Shown: in pieces, positions 21,200-44,128 of the stretch | How positions within the stretch are numbered: the stretch's first letter is position 1 | Layout: each line of letters starts with the position of its first letter | Origin: Sulfuriroseicoccus oceanibius | GTDB lineage: Bacteria > Verrucomicrobiota > Verrucomicrobiia > Verrucomicrobiales > SLCJ01 | DNA: 64,000 bases | Direction of reading: 5' to 3' | NCBI RefSeq assembly: GCF_010681825.2 | Contig: NZ_CP066776.1 | Span: 1 to 64,000, forward strand | Translations under genes and position numbers: made by a program | Notes under the pieces: model-generated | Told to the model about the DNA's origin: nothing | What the model saw: the letters and a program-made list of their open reading frames with translations, nothing else | Database searches by the model: none

Positions 21200-21500
21200 G
21201 CCAGTGGATCGCTCCGCTCCGATTGGGATTTGGATAACGAACTAGCCGCCGCCTGCCAGTGCTCCGGCAACGATTTTCCTGAAAAGGAAACGCACTTCCT
21301 AGGGGGCGCCACATCGCATCATGCACCCGCAGCGCGGGCGGGACGGCATTCCTGCCGTCGATGTGTGACTCCGCAGTTCCTCTAAATCCCCAATCCCACG
21401 CAAAGCTCGGGCGACCGGAGACCACGGCCTACCCGGCAACGAGGCGCACTACGTTCCGATCCGGATTGGGATAACGATAAGGATAAAGACGGCAACAGCG
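21200..21500. repeat. Mosaic family A repeat fragments
   Basis: The hairpin GACGGCATTCCTGCCGTC (21342-21359) with its upstream GCGCAGCG-like context is a family A end. Inverted hexamer runs of GATAAC/GATAAG type flank it (about 21222-21241 and 21466-21490). Together with the family C fragment this fills the 578-bp gap between the PIN-TRAM gene and the insertion sequence; no gene is visible. Confidence 0.6.
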
Positions 21501-23029: not shown

Positions 23030-23130
23030 CGCCCCGATTAGGATATCGATAAGAAGCCTCGCCTCGCATGGGTGGCAGTGGACGGCCCACTCCGATCAGG
23101 ATTTAGATAACGATAAGGATAAAGACCAGC
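23030..23130. repeat. Inverted partial family A hexamer tract
   Basis: GATTAGGATATCGATAAG and GATAACGATAAGGATAAAG stretches are the reverse complement of the TTATCC-rich run seen in the full family A copies. With the terminator downstream it accounts for the 319-bp gap 22963-23281. Confidence 0.5.
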
Positions 23131-35117: not shown

Positions 35118-35217
35118 AGGTTTTATGTTTTAGGTGATTACGTTTTAAGCGACCTCACCAACCTAGAGCGCAGCCCAACGCTCCATAAAACGTAATCACC
35201 TAATCACATAAAACCTC
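35118..35217. repeat. Long inverted repeat between polX and creC
   Basis: About 31-bp arms, beginning AGGTTTTATGT and ending GTGATTACGTTTTA, pair with only a few mismatches across a 38-nt loop. The right arm touches the creC stop codon. It could act as a bidirectional transcription barrier, but it has no U-tract of terminator type. Confidence 0.7.
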
Positions 35218-36649
35218 ACACCGGCACCCTCATCTCCGCTCTGGCTCCAGAACCGTCAGGGCGGTTCTGAAGCGTTACCGACCCGCCGTGGAGTTCGATG
35301 GCCTGGCGGACGAAGCACAGCCCAAGCCCCGAGCTCTTACGGCCGGATTCCGGACGCGCCAGCGAATAGAACCGATCAAACACACGGGAGATCGCGTACT
35401 CCGGGATTCCAGCGCCTTCGTCCTCCACGATCACGCGCACCTCGCTCTCGTCAGTTCCATCGACGGTGACGCGCACCTCGCCGTCGGCTGGTGAAAACTC
35501 GACTGCGTTCTGCACTAAGTTCCCCAGCGCCATCTCAAGCAGGAACTCCTCACCGCGCACGACCGCCTGGCCGCGACACTCGGCAACCACACGCGGCCCA
35601 GCAGCTACATCCATAGGCCGGGCGTGGTCGACCACCCGATGCACCACCTTTGCCAAGTCCACGGGTTCGTCGCACTCCACGCTGTCGCGCGACTCCAACG
35701 ACGCCAGCGCCAACAATTGATCGTTCAAACTTTGTAGCCTCAACGACTCCGATCGGATGTTAGCGAGCAATCGCTCACGCCGTTCCGGCGGCAACTCGGC
35801 ATCAAGCAATTCCACCGCGCCCCGGATCGCAGCCACCGGCGACTTCATCTCGTGGGTCATGGTCTGAACGTACGACTCGACGTAACTGCGACCGTCGAGA
35901 GCCTCGCGCATGTCCTCTACCGCGTCGCCGAGCACCCGTAAATGCCTTCCAGGCATCTTAGGCGCCGCTGATCTTTCGCCCCGGCTCACCGCTTCCGCGT
36001 GGCCGGTCAGCACCCGCAACGGATGCGTCACCCAGCGTGAAAGCAGCCACCCCAGCACCAGCAAAGCCACCGCACCACCCCAAGCCAACGCTTTGATCCG
36101 CTTCCTCGTTTGCTCGATGAACACAAGCAAACTGCGCTGCGGCTTCGAAACCGTGAGCGATCCGATAATCTCGCCCCCACTCACAATCGGCGCCGCAACA
36201 TACATCACCGATGACGCTAGATCCGACTCGTCCAACCGCGACGACCTCGCTCCATACTCCCCGGCCAAGGTGAAAGCCACGTCGCGCAGATGCAAATAAC
36301 TGCGCCCGACATTCTGAGACTGCTCGGAGTCGAACAGAACCACGCCCTTTGCATCGGTCACATAGACATTCAGCGTAACGTCCTGCTTCAGCAGGTCATA
36401 GATCGCGGCGCGCAATTCACGCCGGTGTGCACGCCGCAAGCCTTCGCCCATCGTTGCGTCCACTTCCCCATCCCGCTCAATCTGGGCCGACACCACGCCC
36501 GCCAGCACCTCGGCAATGTCGACCATCGGCTCTTCCGCCGCTTCCAGATACTGCCGCTCAACCCGCTCTAACACAGGGTTCAACACAAAGACCACACCGA
36601 CCACCGCGATGAGGACAAAGCCGAGCAGAATGCGAAGGGTCAGGCTCAT
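35216..36649 (-). CDS. creC: Sensor histidine kinase, CreC-like
   Basis: The 477-residue inner-membrane kinase has a membrane segment at the N-terminus, a periplasmic sensor of about 150 residues, a second membrane segment near 190, a HAMP region, HisKA with THEMKSPVAAIRGAVELLD (His near 265), and an HATPase with NLVQNAVEFSP and GAGIPEY. The overall pattern and the DAKGVVLFDSE sensor stretch match CreC, which in Enterobacteria answers growth in minimal medium. It follows the creB gene by 50 bp and is probably cotranscribed with it. Confidence 0.85.
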   Translation of the reverse strand: MSLTLRILLGFVLIAVVGVVFVLNPVLERVERQYLEAAEEPMVDIAEVLAGVVSAQIERDGEVDATMGEGLRRAHRRELRAAIYDLLKQDVTLNVYVTDAKGVVLFDSEQSQNVGRSYLHLRDVAFTLAGEYGARSSRLDESDLASSVMYVAAPIVSGGEIIGSLTVSKPQRSLLVFIEQTRKRIKALAWGGAVALLVLGWLLSRWVTHPLRVLTGHAEAVSRGERSAAPKMPGRHLRVLGDAVEDMREALDGRSYVESYVQTMTHEMKSPVAAIRGAVELLDAELPPERRERLLANIRSESLRLQSLNDQLLALASLESRDSVECDEPVDLAKVVHRVVDHARPMDVAAGPRVVAECRGQAVVRGEEFLLEMALGNLVQNAVEFSPADGEVRVTVDGTDESEVRVIVEDEGAGIPEYAISRVFDRFYSLARPESGRKSSGLGLCFVRQAIELHGGSVTLQNRPDGSGARAEMRVPV

Positions 36650-36699: not shown

Positions 36700-37431
36700 C
36701 TACAACGGTGCGTTGTCGATCTGCTCCAAGCTATAGCCAATCCCCCGATGCGTCTTGATAAGGTCCGCGGTGGGGCTCACCTGCCGCATCTTCGCGCGCA
36801 AGCTCTTGATATGCGTATCCACCGTGCGCTCCATCGACGCCTCAGGTTCTTCCCACGCGGCGTCCATCAATTGCGCACGGGAGAACACCCGCCCCGGACG
36901 CTCCTCCATTACCGCTAGCAAACGGAACTCGTAGCGCGACAATTCCAACGTCTCGCCAAAATACCGCACCTGCCAACACTCACGGTCAATCACCAGCGGG
37001 GAGGAATCTTCCATTACCGCTCCGGTTTGACCGACCGCTGGTGCCACCGCACCCTCCGCCCGACGCAACACAGCCCGCACCCGCGCATTGAGTTCACGCG
37101 GACTGAATGGCTTTGTCACATAGTCGTCGCCACCGATTTCCAACCCGACCACACGGTCGATCTCACTGGCACGCGCGGTAAGGAAGATCACCGGCACCGC
37201 CGACGACTCCCGAAGCTTGCGGCACAGGTCGAACCCGGTCATATCCGGCAACCCAACATCCAGCACAACCAGGTCGAAGCGGGCCGCATCCAGCTTCTCC
37301 AACGCCTCGCCGCCCGTGGCACAAGCCTCGGAGTCAAAGCCATCGGCTTCCAGCGAGTAGACAATGTTATCGCGGATGGAAGGTTCGTCCTCGACGATCA
37401 GGATGCGACGACGTGTGGTGGAATCAAACAT
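36700..37431 (-). CDS. creB: Response regulator, CreB-like (OmpR/PhoB family)
   Basis: About 243 residues from MFDSTTRRRIL (37431); the frame extends upstream to 37554 but not with protein-like sequence. The receiver domain shows ILIVEDEPS acidic pocket, LVVLDVGLPDM with the phospho-acceptor Asp, and TAR. The C-terminal winged helix (LSRYEFRLLAVMEERPGRVFSRAQLMD) binds DNA. CreB binds TTCAC direct repeats 11 bp apart; such repeats stand before the creD unit 3.3 kb away. Confidence 0.87.
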   Translation of the reverse strand: MFDSTTRRRILIVEDEPSIRDNIVYSLEADGFDSEACATGGEALEKLDAARFDLVVLDVGLPDMTGFDLCRKLRESSAVPVIFLTARASEIDRVVGLEIGGDDYVTKPFSPRELNARVRAVLRRAEGAVAPAVGQTGAVMEDSSPLVIDRECWQVRYFGETLELSRYEFRLLAVMEERPGRVFSRAQLMDAAWEEPEASMERTVDTHIKSLRAKMRQVSPTADLIKTHRGIGYSLEQIDNAPL

Positions 37432-37546: not shown

Positions 37547-37727
37547 GACCACAAGAGTGTGGTCGCTCCATACGCATCGCGCGTGACACAGGCTCCTTAT
37601 CTTTATCCTTATCCAAATCTCAATCGGAGCGCAGCGATACCGATAGGGATCCCGATAGCGAACAGGATCACCTCCCACCACCCGATCCATGCACGCGCAG
37701 CGCGGGAGGGACGGCATTCCTGGCGTC
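37547..37727 (+). repeat. Family A repeat, full copy
   Basis: It runs from the hairpin GACCACAAGAGTGTGGTC (37547-37564) through a TTATCC-like hexamer run and GGAGCGCAGCGAT to the second hairpin region GACGGCATTCCTGGCGTC (one mismatch). It separates creD from creB in a 327-bp gap and may break what was one operon. Confidence 0.8.
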
Positions 37728-37758: not shown

Positions 37759-39018
37759 TCACCCCTTCGCCTGGCGCATCGCACTGGCTCCTCCCGGCGG
37801 CATGGGCGGTGGGGTTGGCTTGGCTTTGCGCCCCCCGAACTTCTCCCCCCAATCCACCTTAGCCGTGGTCATCATCAACAGCGCCAGAGTCACAATCGCC
37901 CCGATGGTAATGGTAAGCCCACTCAATCCATCAAAGAAGAAGCTGTAGCTAAACAACACCATGTACGCGAACTGCGCCGGCAACGAAATGCGCGTGATCC
38001 GCCCCCCTCCCACCGCGTGCAGATACCCATTCACCAACACCAACGACACCACCGCCGAGATCGCAAACGCCGGCAACAACGCCACCACATCGACCAGATA
38101 GGCAAACAACAACTGGAACGCAAAGCACCCGGCAGCCAGGAAGAAGTAGTTCATCGGGTGCAGGTTGATGCCACGCACCGCGCCGAAAATCAGCAACACA
38201 GCAAAGAAGAACAACAACGACACCGGAGCAAAGAAGCTGATCCTTGCAGCCACCGGTCCGGCGTTCAACGCCTTGGGCATGTCCATTCCAATCGACTGCG
38301 CACCGATCACATCGGGATAGCTCCAGACAAACTTCCAACCGTCACCGCTACGTTCCCGTTCTACCGGCGACCCCGTTCCCTCGGGGAAGTTGACCTCATC
38401 GAAGCTCGTGGTCATCACCAGTTCGAAATTCTGCACGCGATCGGTGTCGCCCAGCAGATAGCCCCAACGGTCTAGCCCACGGCTGTCATACGCGACGCGC
38501 AACGGCACACTCCCATGCGGCGGCACCACCACGGCTTGTGTGATCACACCTTCGCTAGGCACCTGTGCACTGGAATCGAGATCGCCGAGCACGAAGGCAA
38601 AGTTCGTGTAACTCGCCTCCTTCGCCGGCAATTTGAACGAGACATAGATGGTTTGCGCGATCGGCGTGGGGTTTGGAATCTCGTACTGTGCGTGGAAGCC
38701 CGTCTTGTATCCGCGGTACCAGAACAAGCCCTTGCGCAACGGCTCATAGTCCAAATCCACAGCGATCCGACTCGACCTCGGCCGCACGAAGCTGCGCCCC
38801 TTTTCGCCGGTCGGCGAGACATACCACGCCACCGGATGCGCCTGGGCCATTGACGGCCCCCAGTTCCCCGCCACCCCTTTATCCATCTCACGCGCACCAT
38901 CCTCGGTGCGGTAGGTCAATGCGCCGCCAAGTAGAAACCACGCCACCGCGGTGCAGCCGAAAATAAACACCGTCGCCAACAATCTCCGTACAGTCAGTTG
39001 ATTCTTCATTTCTTCCAT
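37759..39018 (-). CDS. creD: Inner-membrane protein CreD
   Basis: The 419-residue protein has an N-terminal membrane segment, a periplasmic beta-rich part of about 230 residues, and five or six membrane segments ending in a Pro-rich tail. The ALLPAFAISAVVSLVLVNGYL and GLSGLTITIGAIVTLALL segments fit CreD. In Enterobacteria CreD is induced by CreBC and helps envelope integrity and colicin or beta-lactam tolerance. The upstream gene, 35 bp before it, encodes a secreted partner. The start may also be the ATG at 39009. Confidence 0.85.
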   Translation of the reverse strand: MEEMKNQLTVRRLLATVFIFGCTAVAWFLLGGALTYRTEDGAREMDKGVAGNWGPSMAQAHPVAWYVSPTGEKGRSFVRPRSSRIAVDLDYEPLRKGLFWYRGYKTGFHAQYEIPNPTPIAQTIYVSFKLPAKEASYTNFAFVLGDLDSSAQVPSEGVITQAVVVPPHGSVPLRVAYDSRGLDRWGYLLGDTDRVQNFELVMTTSFDEVNFPEGTGSPVERERSGDGWKFVWSYPDVIGAQSIGMDMPKALNAGPVAARISFFAPVSLLFFFAVLLIFGAVRGINLHPMNYFFLAAGCFAFQLLFAYLVDVVALLPAFAISAVVSLVLVNGYLHAVGGGRITRISLPAQFAYMVLFSYSFFFDGLSGLTITIGAIVTLALLMMTTAKVDWGEKFGGRKAKPTPPPMPPGGASAMRQAKG

Positions 39019-39053: not shown

Positions 39054-40724
39054 TCACAGGCTCGCCTTGCGGTAGAACACCGACACCTTGGGCGCAGCGT
39101 CTCGGAACAACTGCTTGCTAAGGACCAGCCATTTGCCCGCGCCTCCTCCCTCAACAATTTCCAGGTTCCCCTCCAACGCAGTCGCCTCGTAAGCCGGCGG
39201 CAACCACAAGCGCCAGCTCATCTCGTGCGCGAACAACGGAGTCGCAGGCAGCTCCAACTCCAGCCGACCGTCAACCGGCGCCAGCTTCTCCAACTCTGAA
39301 GTAAACGAGTACTTCACCACAGACACGCCGTCCTTTCCGGTTCCCACCGGCACATCGAGACTTCCGTCCGCATTCACCAGTGGATCCACCCGCATGCCAT
39401 CGACCGCACACCCGAGCAACGCACTACCAGCGGGAAGCTCAAGCCGCCAACGAATCGGCGCATCATGGGCAATCGTCACTTGCCCTTCGGAGAGCGATCC
39501 TCCATTCACCGCCACTTTGGTCGACATCTCCGACTTCCGGATCACCGCCTCGGCCGTCTGCAACCGCTCGCGCTCCACCCACTCGAGCTCCACCTCCTCA
39601 CCGGCATTGGATTCCACCCGGATACGCTGCACCTGTGCGCTTACCGGCCGTTGATACCAATCCGGCAATTCCGCGTCCATACCCCAATCACGGACGCCCT
39701 CCACCGATGTCACATCCACTGCGGCATCAGTTAGAACGGATGCAACCACTGGCACCTCGAGCCCTCCCTCCAATTGTGGCCACTGCCAACTCCACCCATT
39801 CCCGTCTGGATCAAGAGGCAACGAATAACCCACCGACACCTTGCGGGACGCAGCGCCATCCGCCGCCCACTGAAGCCGCACCATCCGCATGCCATCGCGC
39901 ATCCCGAATCGTTGCCAGTTGACCAGGCCCGCACCAAACAAGTCCTGAACGAGCGCACCAGCCGGCAGCAACAACACCGCAGAATCCGCATCGGCCTCAT
40001 CCGGGTTGGCCAAGTTCATCCGCAACACCATCGCCACCTGCAAATCCCCCTCCTCTTCCACCACCACAGCGCTCGCCCGCGCACTCCACTCCGGAGCCAC
40101 GTCCGGCCGATCATCGACCAGCACGACAGCGACCTCGCCACCTTCAGCCGGCAACAAGAAACCTCCGCCGCCGGCATCCACGGCACCACGGACCTTCGCC
40201 AGCTTCCCATCCTCCAAGTTCTCCAATTGCAAACGCACCCGGTTGGCGGGATGCACATCCAAAGCCAAAGTTTCGTTAGTTTGGACATCGAGGGCAAAAT
40301 CGATCTGCACATTGTGATCGCCGCGCCCCTCGACCACCAAACAAATCCTCCCATCACGGGTGACCAGCGTCGCCTCATCCGGCGCCACCCTCGTGATCGC
40401 GTATCCTGCATTCAAAATCGGCACCAACTGTGGAGCATCCTGCAACGAGCGCACTGCAACCTCCACCCGCCCGGCATTCCCTGCCTCAGCCCCAAAATCC
40501 ACCGTATAGCAAGCCGACCGCACAACCGCCCCGACCGGTAATGTCGGTTCATCCTCTGCATTCGCCGCATCCGCCTCCCGCGCTGCCTTCGCCATTTCCA
40601 GCGCAAAGGCATCCAATGGCAACGTGACCCTGGCTCCCTGTAATGCGCGTTCTTCGTCGTCGGCATGCCCAATCGCACACCAACCCAACAACAACCCGAT
40701 AACAATTCGTGGATGGATTTTCAT
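39054..40724 (-). CDS. Unknown secreted protein cotranscribed with creD
   Basis: About 556 residues from MKIHPRIV (40724), which starts a clear signal peptide ending IGHADDE. The start is fixed by the GTGAA array upstream, which would fall inside a longer frame. The mature protein is almost all beta-strand-like and acidic, with no catalytic motif or repeat I can name, and no membrane anchor at the C-terminus. Since it is the first gene after a CreB-type operator and lies 35 bp before creD, it probably works with CreD at the outer face of the inner membrane. Confidence 0.75.
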   Translation of the reverse strand: MKIHPRIVIGLLLGWCAIGHADDEERALQGARVTLPLDAFALEMAKAAREADAANAEDEPTLPVGAVVRSACYTVDFGAEAGNAGRVEVAVRSLQDAPQLVPILNAGYAITRVAPDEATLVTRDGRICLVVEGRGDHNVQIDFALDVQTNETLALDVHPANRVRLQLENLEDGKLAKVRGAVDAGGGGFLLPAEGGEVAVVLVDDRPDVAPEWSARASAVVVEEEGDLQVAMVLRMNLANPDEADADSAVLLLPAGALVQDLFGAGLVNWQRFGMRDGMRMVRLQWAADGAASRKVSVGYSLPLDPDGNGWSWQWPQLEGGLEVPVVASVLTDAAVDVTSVEGVRDWGMDAELPDWYQRPVSAQVQRIRVESNAGEEVELEWVERERLQTAEAVIRKSEMSTKVAVNGGSLSEGQVTIAHDAPIRWRLELPAGSALLGCAVDGMRVDPLVNADGSLDVPVGTGKDGVSVVKYSFTSELEKLAPVDGRLELELPATPLFAHEMSWRLWLPPAYEATALEGNLEIVEGGGAGKWLVLSKQLFRDAAPKVSVFYRKASL

Positions 40725-40746
40725 AACACCCCGACTCTGCCGAGTG

Positions 40747-40787
40747 ATTATGAAATGATTGTGAAGCCACGGTGAATTAGCCGTGAA
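40747..40787 (-). promoter_or_regulatory. CreB-type operator array and promoter of the creD unit
   Basis: On the plus strand GTGAA repeats at 40761, 40772 and 40783, plus ATGAA at 40750, are spaced exactly 11 bp. On the minus strand this reads TTCACGGCTAATTCAC and continues, an exact TTCAC-N6-TTCAC cre-tag. CATAAT (40752-40747) is a good -10, so the array replaces the -35 as in PhoB-type activation. The ATG of the secreted protein is 23 bp downstream of the -10. Confidence 0.75.
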
Positions 40788-40809: not shown

Positions 40810-40985
40810 GACCACAAGAGTGTGATCGCTCCATACGCATCGCGCGTGACACGTGCTCCTTATCTTTATCCTTATCCAAATCCTCATCGGAGCGCAGCGA
40901 TCCCGATCCCGATAGCGATAAAGTTCACCTATTCTCGCCCGAACGATGCACGCGCAGCGCTGGGGGGACGGCATTCCTGCCGTCG
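40810..40985 (+). repeat. Family A repeat, full copy
   Basis: Begins with hairpin GACCACAAGAGTGTGATC (one mismatch), passes through a TTATCC hexamer run and ends with GACGGCATTCCTGCCGTC. It fills much of the 348-bp gap between the creD unit and map. Confidence 0.8.
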
Positions 40986-43958: not shown

Positions 43959-44128
43959 GACCACATGAGTGTGGTCGCTCCATACGCTTCGCGGGAGCCC
44001 TGCACTCGTTATCTTTATCCATATCCAAATCCTCATCGGAGCGCAGCGATCCCGATAGCGATAAAGTTCACCTACTCCCGCCCGATCCATGCACGCGCAG
44101 CGCTGGGGGGGACGGCATTCCTGCCGTC
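43959..44128 (+). repeat. Family A repeat, full copy
   Basis: Runs from the perfect hairpin GACCACATGAGTGTGGTC through the TTATCTTTATCCATATCC run to GACGGCATTCCTGCCGTC. It lies in the 364-bp divergent gap between the MoeB-like gene and the dnaJ-like gene; a further hexamer stretch is at about 43885-43910. Confidence 0.8.

Follow-up and report, generated by a model that had tools for sequence, protein, structure and literature searches.

A cre/blr tag upstream of creD has been reported in E. coli, Aeromonas and P. aeruginosa, and S. maltophilia is reported to have a variant of it (PMC4689548, PMC3660660). Activation of creD by CreBC is reported for the first three organisms, while in S. maltophilia CreBC is described as lowering creD expression (PMC4689548), so that the sign of the regulation is not fixed. 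As given in the same source, the S. maltophilia creD promoter has a degenerate tag, TTCACACTCGCTTCAA, before creD and beside creBC, made of a pair only and located 80 to 65 nt before the start codon (PMC4689548). The region upstream of creD in E. coli MG1655 reads TTCAC-N6-TTCAC-N5-TTCAA-N10-CATAGT. Among the titles listed from the PMC open-access literature, none is a regulatory study linking CreBC or the cre tag with Verrucomicrobiota. The other system that has to be considered is the Pho box, since the boxes of the PhoB family also consist of direct repeats in 11-bp steps, and in some phyla TTCAC-like repeats serve as Pho boxes. In PhoB promoters the -35 element is replaced by the array, with 10 bp to the -10.

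We have analyzed a window of 64,000 nucleotides (the whole stretch, positions 1 to 64,000 of contig NZ_CP066776.1) of the verrucomicrobium Sulfuriroseicoccus oceanibius, in which an array of four words in exact 11-bp steps (40787–40750) precedes a group of genes that includes creD, creB and creC. The features are the following:
40783–40787, minus strand: subsite 1 (distal), TTCAC, in register with the exact pair; its position is conserved though the search pattern did not demand it
40772–40776, minus strand: subsite 2, TTCAC, part of the exact pair
40761–40765, minus strand: subsite 3, TTCAC, part of the exact pair; lies over the -35 of the predicted promoter (geometry from the aligned arrays)
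40750–40754, minus strand: subsite 4 (proximal), TTCAT, matched by the four-fold pattern
40734–40739, minus strand: predicted -10, CAGAGT, 10 bp after subsite 4; the full pattern (array and -10) has an exact match in the window
40725–40727, minus strand: predicted leader of about 3 nt, with the transcription start near 40727, from the position of the -10 and the start-codon peak
39054–40724, minus strand: gene A, 556 aa, the first gene behind the array, with a signal-peptide-like start and no Pfam, NCBIfam or PDB family
37759–39018, minus strand: gene of a creD-like inner-membrane protein, 419 aa; matches the C-terminal part of PF06123 (34.8 bits, cut-off 23)
36700–37431, minus strand: creB, OmpR-type response regulator (NCBIfam CreB equivalog, 326.2 bits, cut-off 273)
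35216–36649, minus strand: creC, sensor kinase (NCBIfam CreC equivalog, 533.3 bits, cut-off 356)

Read on the minus strand from 40787 to 40722, the sequence is TTCAC GGCTAA TTCAC CGTGGC TTCAC AATCAT TTCAT AATCACTCGG CAGAGT CGGGGTGTT ATG. The initial annotation had placed GTGAA at 40761, 40772 and 40783 and ATGAA at 40750, in 11-bp steps, exactly where they are found, and its minus-strand TTCAC-N6-TTCAC is present upstream of the creD unit as two exact overlapping pairs (40761–40776 and 40772–40787). The final T of the proximal subsite is common in relatives (30% of the aligned arrays). A four-fold array with up to two mismatches matched once in the window and in none of 100 dinucleotide shuffles. 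The genome scan that had been proposed as a check gave 14 exact TTCAC-N6-TTCAC pairs over the 3.5 Mb, while the reversed control gave two; apart from the window array, only 1637754–1637780 has three exact TTCAC in register. A dispersed intergenic repeat (CATACGCATCGCGCGTGACA ... TTATCTTTATCCTTATCCAAAT) was also detected, as a near-exact pair with one copy directly upstream of the array (40832–40881) and the other between creD and creB (37569–37618); related words are found at 44009–44030, 21465–21486 and 23101–23122.

The array shares with the cre/blr tag of E. coli and Aeromonas, the site of CreB/BlrA, the same word, the 11-bp phase, the regulator family and creD as a target. The description of this tag as known from Enterobacteria is too narrow, as the tag is also reported in Aeromonas, P. 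aeruginosa and, as a variant, S. maltophilia (PMC4689548). There are differences too. The described tag is a pair, whereas here there are three to four regular subsites and TTCAT is accepted as well; the first target is gene A, which belongs to a family without a name; and the ATG lies 22–25 bp behind the last subsite, in contrast to the longer leader and purine-rich word of E. coli creD. In the latter, TTCAA-N10-CATAGT indicates that the distance to the -10-like word also fits the geometry of the array. The S. maltophilia tag is further from the start codon than this one, and the lowering of creD by CreBC reported there (PMC4689548) is unlike the activation that we propose.

The four genes behind the array are on one strand in the order gene A, creD, creB, creC, although the 327-bp gap between creD and creB makes a single transcript for all of them uncertain. 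The CreB- and CreC-like proteins announced for this neighborhood are confirmed as such, both being encoded on the minus strand and both above their NCBIfam equivalog cut-offs, with 48.7 and 38.5% identity, respectively, to the E. coli proteins. The array had been assigned to a creD unit, which is correct in that creD belongs to it, but the first gene is that of the secreted protein A and creD comes second. The creD-like protein, over the PF06123 cut-off and beside creBC, is under the NCBIfam CreD equivalog cut-off (36.9 vs. 275 bits). Gene A had no Pfam or NCBIfam family at E ≤ 0.001, 12 of its homologs had no credible Pfam or PDB match, and its single-sequence AlphaFold2 model (mean pLDDT 41) was too poor for use. 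Searched with a PhoB model, the genome yielded two full-length OmpR-type regulators, CreB itself and a PhoB-like protein (3466092–3466757). In the recognition helix region the window CreB (ERTVDTHIKSLRAKMR) hardly differs from E. coli CreB (DRTVDTHIKTLRAKLR) and is unlike the PhoB of the same genome (TRTLDTHIKRLREKIG).

Conservation of the repeats in relatives, another of the checks proposed at the outset, was found upstream of the gene A-creD unit. Gene A homologs are present in 25 of 93 related genomes, and 21 of these have an in-phase array upstream, made of at least three exact TTCAY in 20 of them and of a pair in G038. The four without it are G058 and G082, in both of which gene A runs into a contig end, G006 and G071; the match in G006 is weak (25.7 bits), lies within a frame of 1470 aa and possibly does not represent an ortholog. 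The spacers vary freely between gene A loci while TTCAY and the phase are kept, at protein identities of 19–34%. The order gene A-creD is also kept, often with creB-creC behind. The relatives probably belong to the order Verrucomicrobiales, given that in G063 (family f2) a gene adjacent to an array shares 83% identity with the corresponding one of Haloferula sp. BvORR071.

The array is also conserved together with CreBC. CreC was over the cut-off in 37 of the 93 genomes, including 23 of the 25 with gene A. Triple TTCAY arrays were found in 35 of the 37 CreC-positive genomes (164 matches, one control match) and in 16 of the 56 CreC-negative ones (32 matches, eight control matches), a difference with a Fisher p of 8e-11 that overstates independence because the genomes are related. 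Some of the CreC-negative triples are simple tandem repeats, DnaA-box-like runs or a single sequence common to eight g3 genomes, which precedes a sigma-factor-like gene in the annotated loci. The conserved TTCACTTCACTTTCATCCGTAATTCATGATAAA stands upstream of this gene in g3 genomes without CreC (L079–L083, L085, L157). Triple TTCAC runs located 134–151 bp before dnaA in two CreC-negative genomes (L158, L159) are probably DnaA boxes.

A pattern of three TTCAY plus the -10 matched 41 of 387 genomes of the phylum and its reversed control none; eight of the 41 correspond to the common g3 sequence. In another family of the same class (f9) the pattern was found in 18 of 36 genomes, 14 of them with CreC over the cut-off and one more with a broken copy, compared to one CreC among the 18 f9 genomes without a match. 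At least six f9 loci (L281, L283, L288, L291, L292 and L304) have creC on one side of the array and an E. coli-type creD on the other. In three f9 genomes (G172, G216 and G437) array and -10 are present without CreC, indicating that the pattern does not belong exclusively to CreB.

The anatomy of the promoter was derived from a profile of 84 distinct arrays of CreC-positive relatives, aligned on the last repeat. They were drawn from among the matches listed, with the arrays of G020, G048, G055 and G065 entered in part, and include close relatives as well as some arrays located inside genes; left out were 17 loci of CreC-negative genomes, L028 and L043, arrays with more than six subsites and those lying too close to a locus end. 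Although the search asked for three subsites, a fourth one 11 bp further upstream was conserved. Downstream of the last repeat, A at +11 (60%), T at +15 (62%) and G at +8 (57%) stood out; for a transcription start near +22 they would be the -11 A, -7 T and -14 G, respectively, of an (extended) -10. The A-N3-T signature 10 bp after the last repeat was present in 42 of the 84 arrays, compared to 0–12 at 49 other offsets, the exact signature being absent from the other half. There was likewise a peak of ATG at +22 (19 arrays) and +23 (15), i.e., 34 of 84, with 50 having no ATG there; it comprised 15 of the 20 gene A rows and 19 of the 64 others. In the f9 arrays, where the pattern did not demand an ATG, it was found at +21 to +24 in 15 of 18 and at +22 or +23 in 11. 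A -10 ending about 6 nt before the ATG would fit the peak of the relatives; in the window the ATG (40724) is at +25, with a predicted leader of about 3 nt.

On this evidence the conserved -10 is probably the element 10 bp downstream of the last repeat, CAGAGT in the window. The initial annotation had chosen CATAAT, a word that does exist at 40752–40747 but overlaps repeat 4 and is not conserved in the 84 arrays, so that this choice is probably wrong; in the predicted promoter, too, the array covers the -35 position, at subsite 3. As the start codon peaks 22–23 bp after the last repeat, the mRNA is probably leaderless or nearly so and, judging from the spacing, transcription would start at or just before the start codon. 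Such starts may be general in this genome. In a rough look at the 36 ATG-started window frames of 200 aa or more, Shine-Dalgarno-like words preceded two, compared to four in the background stretch, so that leader-poor starts may be usual here and not special to the array. A -10-like A-N3-T was somewhat common just before the ATG of these frames.

The core of the first interpretation, a conserved cre-type array beside genes for CreB and CreC, is supported by the sequence comparisons. We consider it likely that the array is the operator-promoter of the gene A-creD(-creB-creC) unit, activated by CreB and giving a near-leaderless transcript; the binding, the activation, the start and the signal are the parts of this proposal that we infer. 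Phosphorylated CreB would occupy the four TTCAY subsites in the form of two dimers, arranged in tandem on the same face of the DNA, and, from there, take the place of a -35 element and help RNA polymerase at the weak -10 (CAGAGT) located 10 bp on, an activation geometry of the PhoB type. Transcription would then start a few bases from the ATG, leading to a leaderless or near-leaderless mRNA. The same module of array, -10 and start codon would control further envelope genes, forming a wider CreBC regulon both in the order and in another family of the class.

Simple 11-bp TTCAY repeats do occur in some relatives (G018:C59, G070:C275 and G059:C97), so chance or a plain tandem repeat has to be considered as the origin of the array. 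This origin is refuted by the conservation in relatives, with different spacers around a constant word and phase in loci of divergent proteins, together with the shuffles mentioned above, and its probability is practically nil; moreover, a 10-bp period gave matches in only 18 of the 93 genomes, mostly perfect tandem repeats, compared to 51 for the 11-bp period. A more serious competitor would be a Pho box, bound in phosphate starvation by the PhoB of the genome and not by CreB. It has in its favor the 11-bp boxes of this family, TTCAC-like in some phyla, the presence of the PhoB-like regulator and the layout itself, with an OmpR-type regulator, direct repeats and the -35 replaced by the array. 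However, the word is another one, and a TTCAY pair was found in none of 26 pstS-like upstream regions (500 bp; 30 loci fetched, L361, L362, L366 and L370 left out), that of this genome included, and the pst locus of this genome was likewise free of the tag. Besides, the triple arrays track CreC, this one sits in the creBC locus, and the helix residues match those of E. coli CreB and not those of the PhoB. With the only other full-length OmpR-type regulator found being PhoB-like and the pstS regions lacking the tag, a Pho box is very unlikely. Words similar to TTTGTGAC recur upstream of pstS (L341–L347, L351), where they may represent the Pho-type site used in the order.

Two further alternatives concern the position of the -10 and the sign of the regulation. 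If the -10 were CATAAT (40752–40747), repeat 4 would overlap it and the leader would be of about 15 nt; this word is nearer to TATAAT than CAGAGT, and both are present. Yet the 84 arrays conserve no -10 at that place, while they do conserve the A/T signature located 10 bp past the last repeat, and in two families the distance from the downstream -10 to the start codon is fixed, so we regard this promoter as unlikely. Slightly less probable still is that CreB represses, or binds with another regulator, the array being an operator and not an activation site. Here the precedent is the creD of S. maltophilia, lowered by CreBC, against which stand the three organisms with reported activation of creD (PMC4689548). 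The locus has no good -35 of its own. The spacing between array and -10 is that of an activation site if compared with the PhoB geometry, and activation by CreB from the array, at the downstream -10, is the reading that we retain.

Beyond gene A, the genes found behind arrays in CreC-positive relatives include those of CreD, VIT/VWA proteins, membrane proteins of the VanZ-like, DUF817 and DUF4153 types, an alpha/beta hydrolase, a calcineurin-like phosphoesterase and a class-A penicillin-binding protein, and in some relatives the array precedes creB or creC. By annotation only, this putative regulon points to envelope functions. The genome of S. oceanibius has a second array with one mismatch (2137650–2137608), followed at the same spacing by a -10 (GATGCT) and by an ATG at +22; its 257-aa product has 28–31% identity to array-borne genes of two relatives. 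Most of the 14 exact pairs lie inside genes and were not taken as regulon members. We discarded as regulon members the pairs at 497343 and 497851, which are two copies of one element, TTATTCACA, presumably a DnaA-box-like word, before a LamB-type porin gene. The copies of this DnaA-box-like element (AATAACTCACCCYGATTTCACAAGTTATTCACAA) are 508 bp apart, at 497332–497359 and 497840–497867 (L001 2833–2860 and 3341–3368). Also discarded was the exact triple at 1637754–1637780 (L006 2755–2781), where the -10 signature is absent; it is in reverse orientation to the adjoining NlpC/P60 gene.

The site is thus of a known kind but located in a distant phylum, and what is new is the longer array, its rigid spacing to the -10 and the ATG, and the first target. 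The comparisons suggest that an envelope-stress switch of gut and water bacteria also operates in this phylum, with a layout that recurs in the relatives; both the CreBC word and its role at creD seem to be preserved across phyla. For the wider proposition, a CreBC envelope-stress regulon throughout Verrucomicrobiota with a rigid operator/-10/ATG module of ca. 65 bp, leaderless mRNAs and new families including gene A as a CreD partner, we see the chances as evenly balanced. If true, the module would consist of four TTCAY subsites in phase, a spacer of 10 bp, a weak -10, a further 6–7 nt and the ATG; activation by CreB alone would set the starts of both transcription and translation; and the regulon would hold families not tied to CreBC before, gene A among them. 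The rigid spacing would make the regulon findable by pattern and its transcription starts predictable to the base, and an orphan-like envelope system of Verrucomicrobiota would be tied to a studied one with a readable regulon. Gene A, a secreted protein family that travels with CreD, is a candidate for the missing CreD partner.
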